Origin: Bacteroidota bacterium
Lineage (GTDB): Bacteria; Bacteroidota; Rhodothermia; Rhodothermales; Bin80
Length of the DNA stretch: 45,239 nt
NCBI GenBank assembly: GCA_026709335.1
Contig: JAPOTE010000062.1
Span: 1 to 45,239 of the forward strand
Reading direction: 5' to 3'
This document shows positions 33,131 to 36,619 of the stretch, piece after piece (the first letter of the stretch is position 1; every line of letters begins with the position of its first letter). Under the pieces are notes generated by a model. The model was not told the DNA's origin. It saw only the letters and a program-made list of their open reading frames with translations, and did no database searches. The translations under genes and the position numbers were made by a program.

Positions 33131-34024
33131 ATGCATCTTTACTTGGACCTGTTGCGTTATGTTATGGAGAATGGGATGGAGCGCCGTGATCGCACAGGTA
33201 CCGGAACGATCAGCGTTTTCGGATACCAGATGCGCTTTCCTCTGCAGGATGGATTTCCAATTTGTACGACCAAACGTGTATGGTTCAGAGGTTTGGCCTG
33301 TGAGCTCCTCTGGTTCCTGTCCGGCTCCACGAATATCAAGCCACTGGTGGATCAGGGGATTTCAATATGGACTGCATGGCCACTCAAGAATTATCTGCAA
33401 CATCGGAACCTTCACGTACCGTCGTCTGACTCAGAGGAGTGGGCAAAATGCCTTGAAGATTTTGAAAACCTGATTCGCAACGAGCGGGGATTTGCAGATG
33501 CATGGGGAGATTTAGGACCTGTATACGGGAAGCAATGGCGTTCCTTTTGCGATGTGGATCAAATTACATCTGTTATTGACTCCATACGAGAGAATCCATG
33601 GAGCCGCCGACATATCGTAAGTGCCTGGAACCCGAAAGAATTGGATCTGATGGCACTTCCTCCGTGTCACATGTTCTTTCAGTTCTCTGTGATCGCTGAC
33701 CGGCTCTCCTGCCATCTATATATTCGGTCAAATGATCTCTTTTTGGGTGCTCCATTCAATATTGCTCAGTATGCTCTCTTAACACACCTGATCGCACATC
33801 AGACAGGACTTCAGCCGGGAGATCTGATTTACACAATCGGAGATGCACACATCTATCTGAACCATCTTGGTCAGGTGACAGAGCAATTGAAGCGAGAGCC
33901 CTACCCGCTCCCTGAACTGCAAATTCTCAGAAAACCCGCTACACTGTTTGATTATTCGTATGATGACTTTAATCTCATCAAATACAGATATCATCCGGCA
34001 ATCAAAGCTCCGGTAGCTGTCTAA
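33131..34024 (+). CDS. thyA: Thymidylate synthase
   Basis: A 297-residue cytoplasmic enzyme that methylates dUMP to dTMP with methylenetetrahydrofolate. Motifs: [56 protein letters not shown], and the catalytic Cys179 in [17 protein letters not shown]-type region QLPY-equivalent [20 protein letters not shown]. Somewhat longer than E. coli ThyA (264) because of an insertion at about 95-120. It makes dihydrofolate, which FolA, three genes on, recycles. Confidence 0.95.
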
Positions 34025-34050: not shown

Positions 34051-35058
34051 ATGACATCACGGAGTTCCGGCGAACAGCGAAAGGCTCTTCTACAGGATAT
34101 ATATCAGGAAAACCTAAAACTGTTGGGGCGACCATCTCCTGAGCCACGAAAGAAGACAAAACGAACGGCAGCCCTACTGATTTTATCTCTCATGATCGGG
34201 GGTCTCCTCTTTGTAGGTGTGGGCCTGGAGCAGATGAAGCAGCCTGTCCCTGACGTTCCCTCTGAGCAATTTCTTTCTCCCGAACAGAAAGTCCGCACTT
34301 CTCTCAACAAGATTCCAGATCTTGAACCCGACGATAAAAACCCTCTCCTTTCAAGCGTTTATGGGCTGAATGTGCGAACCATTGCCATCGATCCTGGACA
34401 TGGTGGTTATGATCCCGGTGCAATAGGGCAAGCCGATTTAACCGAAAAAACGCTGACGCTGGATCTTGCTCTTCGACTGGAACGAAGGTTGAAAGCACAT
34501 GGGTTGAATGTGATTCTCACCAGATCACAAGACATCAATGTAAGCCTCCGGGAAAGAGTCGAATATGCAAAAGAGCAACAGGCAGATCTGTTTGTATCCA
34601 TTCATGTCAATTCATTACCCGTGGACACGATTGCATTTATTGAAACGTTTTACTTTAGCCCACGCGCGGACGCACGAATAGAACGCCTGGCTGCCCAGGA
34701 AAACATTAATTCAGGCTACAGTTTTGGTCAATGGCAAAATGATTTTGAAAAAATCAATCGGACCTTAAAAATAGAAGAGAGTCGCCACCTGGCAACATAC
34801 ATTCAGAGGGAGATGGTATCGCATATGAGAAAATTTAACCCAAATCTCCAGGATTGGGGGGCTCGTTCTGGTCCGTTTATGGTTTTGATGAATGCAGGTG
34901 TTCCAGCAGTTTTGGCTGAAGTAACCGCAATTTCGATGCCCGAAGAAGAGCAGCGCCTCTTGAATATTGAATACCGGGAACAGCTTGCTATTGGACTTGA
35001 GTCTGGAATTCTCGCGTATATTTCCGAGAAGAGAAATACTCAAATAACAACGGATTAG
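34051..35058 (+). CDS. N-acetylmuramoyl-L-alanine amidase (Amidase_3), membrane-anchored
   Basis: A 335-residue wall hydrolase. After a basic cytoplasmic N-terminus there is one transmembrane helix (about 40-58, LLILSLMIGGLLFVGVGLE). The Amidase_3 domain starts near 108: zinc ligands H117 in IDPGHGGYDPG, E132 in LTEKTL, H185 in SIHVNS; catalytic E290 in VLAEVTAIS. No AMIN or SPOR domain is present. It cuts the amide between MurNAc and the stem peptide, as in cell separation. It lies between thyA and the MamK-like gene, 5 bases before the latter, so the two are co-transcribed; a wall-cytoskeleton link is possible. Confidence 0.92.
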   Translation: MTSRSSGEQRKALLQDIYQENLKLLGRPSPEPRKKTKRTAALLILSLMIGGLLFVGVGLEQMKQPVPDVPSEQFLSPEQKVRTSLNKIPDLEPDDKNPLLSSVYGLNVRTIAIDPGHGGYDPGAIGQADLTEKTLTLDLALRLERRLKAHGLNVILTRSQDINVSLRERVEYAKEQQADLFVSIHVNSLPVDTIAFIETFYFSPRADARIERLAAQENINSGYSFGQWQNDFEKINRTLKIEESRHLATYIQREMVSHMRKFNPNLQDWGARSGPFMVLMNAGVPAVLAEVTAISMPEEEQRLLNIEYREQLAIGLESGILAYISEKRNTQITTD

Positions 35059-35063
35059 TTAGT

Positions 35064-36089
35064 ATGCCACGCAGTTCTATCCCATCAAACAACATTCTGT
35101 ATATCGGGATTGACCTAGGAACATCGCGAAGCGCCATTGCTGCCAGTAATGGCAAGCGAAGATGGATCCATAGCTATGTGGGCTGGCCTCGAGATTTTGT
35201 TGCGCGGAGGATGCTGAAGCAAGATGTTCTTATCGGCAGAGATGCTATTGAACACCGAAACTCTGTCAACCTTGTCCGACCACTTGAACATGGCGTCATC
35301 AAAGATGGAGCTGACAAGGACGAAAAAGCTGTCCGTGAACTCGTCAGCCATTTGATTGATCTTGTACAGCCGGAAGAAGGGCAGAAAATTTACGCCGCTG
35401 TTGGTGTACCTGCAGAAGCCCTTCGCATCAACAAGTTGGCGATCCGTAATGCTATTGGAGAATGGGCCGACACACTCATGCTCGTGTCGGAACCCTTCGC
35501 CGTTGCATACAGGCTCGGAGCCCTCAACAACACCTGTATTATCGACATCGGTGCAGGAACTGTTGACTTCTGCGTGATGCATGGAACGGTGCCCGGCGAG
35601 GAAGATCAGCGTTCACTACGCACAGGTGGAGACCATGTAGATGAACAACTTTTAAATTTATTGTCGGAACGTTTCGTACAGACTCCTTTCAGCGTGACAT
35701 TTGCACGTGAACTCAAAGAAAAATATGGAAGTGTGTCCGGTGCTTCTGATCGGATTAAAGTTCGACTCCCTATTGCAGGGAAATTTGAAGTACACGATCT
35801 TACCGAAGAAGTCTGGAGATCCTGTGAATCAATGATTCCTTCCATTTCGGAAACTCTCATTGATTTACTGAGCAGCTATGAGCCAATGCTTCAGGAACGG
35901 ATCCGACATAATATCTACCTTGCAGGAGGTGGGAGCCAGATTCATGGACTGGCAAAAGCAATCAGCTTCGCACTGGAAGAATATGGACAATTCACGATTA
36001 CTCCTATTCAAGATCCGCTGTTCAGCGGTGCCGAAGGCGCTTTGAATCTAGCGGAAGACATGCCACAAGAATATTGGGAAAACATGTGA
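35064..36089 (+). CDS. MamK-like bacterial actin
   Basis: A 341-residue actin-fold ATPase. Phosphate-1 loop: GIDLGTSRSA at 15-24; phosphate-2: IIDIGAGTVDFC at 159-170; adenosine motif: YLAGGGSQIHGLA at 285-297. It is closer to MamK than to MreB: it shares SYVGWPRDFVARRML, VGVPAEALRINKLAIRNAIG, VSEPFAVAY (E143), MHGTVPGEEDQ and the ending LAEDMPQEYW, which parallels MamK. E143 and D161 fall at the positions of MamK catalytic residues. MamK filaments organise magnetosomes in magnetotactic bacteria, but MamK-like actins also occur in other bacteria with unknown roles. No other mam gene is in the window. It sits 5 bases after the amidase gene and its stop overlaps the folA start. Confidence 0.87.
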   Translation: MPRSSIPSNNILYIGIDLGTSRSAIAASNGKRRWIHSYVGWPRDFVARRMLKQDVLIGRDAIEHRNSVNLVRPLEHGVIKDGADKDEKAVRELVSHLIDLVQPEEGQKIYAAVGVPAEALRINKLAIRNAIGEWADTLMLVSEPFAVAYRLGALNNTCIIDIGAGTVDFCVMHGTVPGEEDQRSLRTGGDHVDEQLLNLLSERFVQTPFSVTFARELKEKYGSVSGASDRIKVRLPIAGKFEVHDLTEEVWRSCESMIPSISETLIDLLSSYEPMLQERIRHNIYLAGGGSQIHGLAKAISFALEEYGQFTITPIQDPLFSGAEGALNLAEDMPQEYWENM

Positions 36090-36619
36090 CCCGCCCGCTG
36101 GTGATTATCATCGCTGCACTGGCACAAAAAAATCGCTGCATTGGACGTGATACACGCCTTCCTTGGCATGTTCCGAGTGATCTGCGACGCTTCAAGCGAC
36201 TCACGTATGGTTCACCAATGATTATGGGACGAGTCACATGTGAAGGGCTGATTCGTGATTTTGGAGGCCCTTTACCTGGAAGGGAAATATTTGCATTGAC
36301 CCGCGACTCTAATAGAAAAATCCATCCTGACATCCAGATCTGCCCATCACTGGAGTCAGCACTGGATCATGTGAAAACTGCTGCAAAGGTGTTTATCGCC
36401 GGTGGTGCCACGATTTATCAAGAGGGGCTAAAATTTGCCGATCGGCTTGAGTTAACTCTCATTGATGGTGCATATGAGGGAGACACCTTTTTTCCTTCCT
36501 ATGAGCACCTGATCGGGACTGAATTCGCTCTTAAGAAAGAAGATCCACACCAAGGATTTTCATTTGTTACCTATGATCGAATTCAGCCGCCGAGGAAAAC
36601 TGCTGCCCCACGGATGTGA
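36086..36619 (+). CDS. folA: Dihydrofolate reductase
   Basis: A 177-residue enzyme reducing dihydrofolate with NADPH. GTG 36086 is taken as start: it overlaps the TGA of the actin gene as GTGA, and the domain begins at once (VIIIAALAQKNRCIG). Motifs: LPWHVPSDLRRFKRLT with acidic Asp32 (E. coli Asp27), PMIMGRVTCEGL, and the NADPH loop VFIAGGATIYQ. The short upstream TTG at 36074 is less likely. With thyA nearby, it closes the folate cycle for thymidylate synthesis; the amidase and MamK-like genes lie between the two. Confidence 0.92.
   Translation: MTRPLVIIIAALAQKNRCIGRDTRLPWHVPSDLRRFKRLTYGSPMIMGRVTCEGLIRDFGGPLPGREIFALTRDSNRKIHPDIQICPSLESALDHVKTAAKVFIAGGATIYQEGLKFADRLELTLIDGAYEGDTFFPSYEHLIGTEFALKKEDPHQGFSFVTYDRIQPPRKTAAPRM

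Follow-up and report, generated by a model that had tools for sequence, protein, structure and literature searches.

A MamK-type actin encoded in the window (the whole stretch of 45,239 nucleotides that was analyzed) is paired throughout its distribution in the Rhodothermales with a membrane-anchored murein amidase, and the cytoplasmic tail of this amidase bears a conserved motif that co-occurs with the actin. This motif, which the sequence-only reading had missed, is the most informative element of the system. The best explanation, and one that we hold to have slightly more for it than against it, is that a MamK-type filament docks the tail motif and positions or activates the amidase. The fixed actin-amidase pairing and the confinement of the tag to actin carriers suggest, more specifically, that the filament directly positions the wall hydrolase. 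On these comparative grounds, we regard it as evenly balanced whether the actin filament directly carries and places the wall amidase via a short cytoplasmic docking peptide, which would make the latter a cytoskeleton-tethered murein hydrolase.

Table 1. Features of the actin-amidase locus, with a syntenic locus lacking the actin; positions are those of the window unless another contig is named.
Feature	Position	Strand	Basis or remark
thyA	33131..34024	+	Thymidylat_synt by Pfam; near the actin in families f1, f12 and f14 only
Membrane-anchored N-acetylmuramoyl-L-alanine amidase	34051..35058	+	Amidase_3 (PF01520), 151.5 bits against a cut-off of 27; directly upstream of the actin
Candidate docking motif, amidase residues 10-23 (RKALLQDIYQENLK)	34078..34119	+	Conserved within an otherwise unconserved tail
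Amidase transmembrane helix (approximate)	34165..34221	+	Hydrophobic stretch; helix 37-53 in a low-confidence model
MamK-family actin-like ATPase	35064..36089	+	341 aa; NF040964 profile, MamK structures, tree grouping
folA	36086..36619	+	DHFR_1 by Pfam; beside the actin only in the window's family, f1
Actin-less syntenic amidase locus of G012 (L150)	G012:C88, 6993-7910	+	Motif missing, insert region shortened

Family placement and distribution of the actin

The sequence-only reading had recognized a MamK-like actin in this gene, and profile, structural and phylogenetic comparisons all bear it out. The NCBIfam MamK profile NF040964 matches the window ORF with 383.7 bits (E 6.6e-115) over positions 1-329 of its 335, slightly short of the 400 bits set as the curated cut-off. 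Of the 34 carrier genomes, 18 reach that cut-off, with 19 matches among them (G033 only when its neighbors are included in the frame), and the remaining matches score 371-398 bits. The BeeR profile (NF053558) gives 173.9 bits, under its cut-off of 530, and the MreB models reach at most about 76 bits (75.8 for NF010539, under its cut-off of 293). Among solved structures, MamK (5ljw/5jyg) is likewise the best match with ~263 bits, against 126 for BeeR and 49 for MreB, and residues 8-340 of the window actin are colinear with it. The window actin shares 39% identical residues with Magnetospirillum MamK, 32% with BeeR and 26% with the MreB of its own genome, for which we take the second actin-type match of that genome, found at a separate locus (G000:C118); over the 34 orthologues, the corresponding values are 36-42%, 32-37% and, again with the MreB of the window genome, 22-28%. 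The MamK residue is retained at 78 positions in at least 33 of the 34 orthologues, including G19, T20, E143, D161 and D168. E143 and D161, singled out earlier, align with the same residues of MamK under the same numbering, and the two further stretches that had been picked out by eye, EYW near the C-terminus and VGWPRDF, align with the QYW and VGYPKDV of MamK, respectively.

A phylogeny had been proposed as a check; the tree of the actin with MamK, BeeR and MreB includes 16 of the 34 orthologues, one MamK and one BeeR, the last two both on long branches. In it, the orthologues group with MamK with support of 93/95, and BeeR and MreB fall apart from them. With long branches and a single MamK in the tree, the Rhodothermales clade could be either the sister group of MamK or a branch within it. 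Matches from plasmid records were set aside: the 15 listed of 27, at 24-28% identity, are MreB-type wherever they are annotated.

The actin is carried by 34 of the 114 Rhodothermales genomes, with scores of 371-423 bits, and every other match remains at or below 89 bits. Among 394 evenly sampled Bacteroidota, the carriers are exclusively Rhodothermales; a class-level survey gives the same picture, and a contig search for relatives returns only close Rhodothermales relatives (MAGs labelled Rhodothermales, Rhodothermaceae or Bacteroidota). When the actin is mapped on an MreB tree, its distribution requires nine changes, seven of which are forced by well-supported branches, each being a gain or a loss. 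One carrier, G091, has two copies. Its two amidase-actin loci lie on one contig in opposite directions (G091:C91, 102544-103536 and 130035-131027) and have equal scores, perhaps reflecting an assembly artefact.

The context had also been read as probably non-magnetotactic, and searches with three mam families, MamH, MamL and MamA, agree with this. MamH was not found in the window's own genome. MamL is not found over the cut-off in 14 carriers, with one match of 22 bits in G022, and MamA yields in the 14 carriers only TPR noise far below the cut-off, the same as in control genomes. With MamH and MamL not found and MamA matched only by TPR noise, these searches give no indication of a magnetosome island, and the carriers are apparently non-magnetic. 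Hence, although MamK is the nearest characterized relative, we consider it highly improbable that the protein serves magnetosomes or is left over from a magnetosome island since lost: in addition to these search results, its neighbor is always the amidase, and the actin gene is intact and conserved across the order.

The upstream amidase and its cytoplasmic motif

In every one of the 34 loci, the amidase gene lies directly upstream of the actin gene and has the same orientation. The distance between them ranges from small overlaps up to 366 bases, the two often overlapping or almost touching, and this operon-like pairing persists through at least seven well-supported gains or losses. The 5-base gap reported for the window is correct, with the amidase stop ending at 35058 and the actin ATG beginning at 35064, as is the GTGA overlap with folA, where the actin TGA (36087-36089) lies over the folA GTG (36086-36088). 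As for the amidase-MamK-folA order, whose conservation had been proposed as a check, its amidase part holds in all loci and its folA part in the window's family only. The remaining neighbors vary, with thyA, folA and bshA in f1 and EF-G and a DNA polymerase III subunit in f5. Being local to one family, the folA coupling carries little functional weight, and both folA and thyA were rejected as functional partners, being local neighbors only. Elsewhere in the window, the reverse-strand segment 38556-39209 has, by eye, the look of a SleB-type cell-wall hydrolase, with no Pfam match.

As read from the sequence, the amidase begins with a short tail, basic and cytoplasmic, which is followed by a single transmembrane helix and then by the catalytic domain in the periplasm; this orientation is assigned by the positive-inside rule. 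The residues H117, E132, H185 and E290, which we take to be the zinc ligands of the Amidase_3 family, are invariant in 22 aligned rows. The amidase profile matches across the regulatory insert region, with profile positions 117-339 covered in the match to AmiA (8c2o) and 119-334 in that to AmiC (4bin). This long form of the amidase attains 360-468 bits only in actin-carrying genomes; elsewhere the scores are at or below 167, save in G012 with 224. The two AlphaFold models are of low confidence (mean pLDDT 55 and 51) because the alignments are shallow.

The sole conserved part of the amidase tail is a motif with the consensus [RK]xx[IL]LxxVYE[DE]NxR. Across 18 representatives, the column entropy of its key sites is 0-1.6 bits versus mostly 2.5-3.4 in the rest of the tail. 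The conserved motif sites 0, 1, 4, 5 and 8 fit a single helical face, and a helix is predicted at the motif in a low-confidence AlphaFold model. A profile made from the first 25 residues of the amidase and run against the 114 genomes matches only the amidase, one gene per genome except in G091 with its two loci, with E-values from 4e-11 to 2e-4, and in genomes with neither gene it gives nothing better than E 0.025. The motif is confined to the actin carriers and one draft, G102, where it sits at a contig end, the contig breaking inside the gene, and no actin is assembled. The G101 amidase is truncated ahead of the motif. In G020 and G092, the motif lies at the end of another contig, as would be expected if the amidase gene were broken. 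In G022 (L069), the tail holds the motif twice, as ILRAVYEENRR and VLRGVYETNRA; the chance of a comparable pattern in a random 45-residue stretch is about 1 in 100,000. A similar string, VYEENIRRAS, occurs in L158 (G000:C76, reverse strand) within a long protein that appears MgtE-like by eye and is conserved in the genus; we judge it to be a chance match because this protein is hydrophobic and absent from the motif-profile matches.

Co-occurrence, coupled loss and a candidate docking mechanism

The actin and the motif-bearing amidase agree in their presence or absence in 113 of 114 genomes (Fisher p 3e-28, uncorrected for relatedness), and the distances among the actins correlate with those among the amidases at 0.88, or 0.78 once regressed on MreB distances. 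Adjacent genes can be gained or lost jointly without mutual binding, and only the motif loss in G012 bears on the motif itself. This genome, which belongs to the window's family, retains the amidase, folA, bshA and the following window genes in the same order, with the actin missing between the amidase and folA. Its amidase has lost the motif and kept the transmembrane helix and the catalytic domain. This coupled loss is known from G012 alone, which sits on a long branch.

The simplest reading of these associations is that the motif would be the site where the actin holds the amidase. A different reading is that the two proteins act in one process, such as division or wall growth, as a co-inherited operon without contact, with the motif binding some other cytoplasmic protein or the membrane surface. 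Neighboring genes are indeed often gained and lost together, and we allow this a minor but real chance; however, the motif is missing in the searched actin-less genomes bar the contig-end case, it was lost with the actin in G012, and a third partner would need a matching distribution. The same association data would also fit an actin that is an FtsA-like or EutJ-like ATP switch, which, rather than forming a long filament, would activate or inactivate the amidase by binding its tail. The actin does show weak matches to the FtsA and EutJ models but is far nearer to the polymerizing MamK and BeeR than to either of them, and we accord the switch a small chance.

Under the favored filament-docking reading, the following picture can be drawn. 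Since the actin belongs to the MamK family, we infer that it forms filaments, most likely polymerizing in the cytoplasm with ATP. The filament, or an assembled form of the actin, would scaffold one client, the upstream-encoded membrane-anchored murein amidase, whose short cytoplasmic helix (RxxILxxVYEENxR) would dock on it, with the adjoining transmembrane helix crossing the inner membrane. The presumed effect of this binding is that the periplasmic zinc amidase would cut peptidoglycan where the filament sets it, perhaps at the division site or the side wall. The AmiA/B/C relatives split daughter cells; hence, division is our first guess for the site and side-wall remodeling the second. The earlier suggestion of a filament with a different job, perhaps in wall remodeling, thus survives in part: a MamK-like actin with a non-magnetosome job linked to the wall is supported by the phylogeny, the mam genes not found and the universal amidase, but the coupling to folA that had been brought in alongside is local.

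Comparison with known systems

MamK is known for one job, in magnetosome chains, and its non-magnetosome relatives BeeR and Bbp have been reported yet are unexplained. The Rhodothermales actin, with its fixed partner, candidate binding peptide and natural coupled loss, makes it directly testable what a MamK-type actin does where there are no magnetosomes. It shares with MamK the closest profile and structures, full-length colinearity and the 78 near-invariant positions, E143 and D161 among them. It differs in occurring without the three searched mam families and in being partnered by a murein amidase instead of by an adaptor of the MamJ type.

BeeR is described as a MamK-related actin of Verrucomicrobiota, bacteria without magnetosomes, with an unexplained function and an N-terminal extension of 30-50 residues (PMC11929497). 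The actin described here resembles it in being a MamK relative outside magnetosome-bearing bacteria and differs from it in its identity and sub-cut-off profile score, given above, and in being without such an extension: GIDLG begins after 14 residues in the window actin and mostly after 11-19 in the orthologues. Bbp, a MamK relative of non-magnetotactic bacteria, is reported mostly from large Desulfobacterota and Gammaproteobacteria, with inclusion limited to at least 65% similarity to the Ca. Electrothrix gigas Bbp (PMC10580974). This likeness raises the possibility that the Rhodothermales actin has its own role in cell size or shape, as Bbp of big bacteria, and that the amidase is a separate wall-trimming factor. 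We see only a slim chance of this, in that the Ca. Electrothrix gigas cluster, as described there, combines Bbp with a hypothetical and a Kelch-like gene and no amidase (PMC10580974); the two actins are here set side by side by description only. In the open-licence literature searched, a link of a MamK-type actin to wall cutting through an amidase is not described, though an earlier mention elsewhere is possible; the one paper matched for MamK together with such an enzyme and peptidoglycan, a locust transcriptome study, is unrelated judging from title and abstract.

On the side of the enzyme, the match to AmiA and AmiC extends over the catalytic domain with its regulatory insert region. The AmiA, AmiB and AmiC enzymes of E. 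coli are periplasmic, whereas the Rhodothermales amidase is tethered by a transmembrane helix and has the conserved cytoplasmic motif. The combination of an actin with the cytoplasmic part of a membrane protein also recalls, by analogy only, MreB with RodZ, where a cytoplasmic actin is bound by such a part and guides wall work. In the system proposed here, the candidate client would be the hydrolase itself, held via a short peptide, and the actin is of the MamK type instead of MreB. If true, the docking of the amidase on a MamK-type filament would connect a cytoplasmic actin directly with a wall hydrolase, a link that can be checked by simple binding and localization tests.
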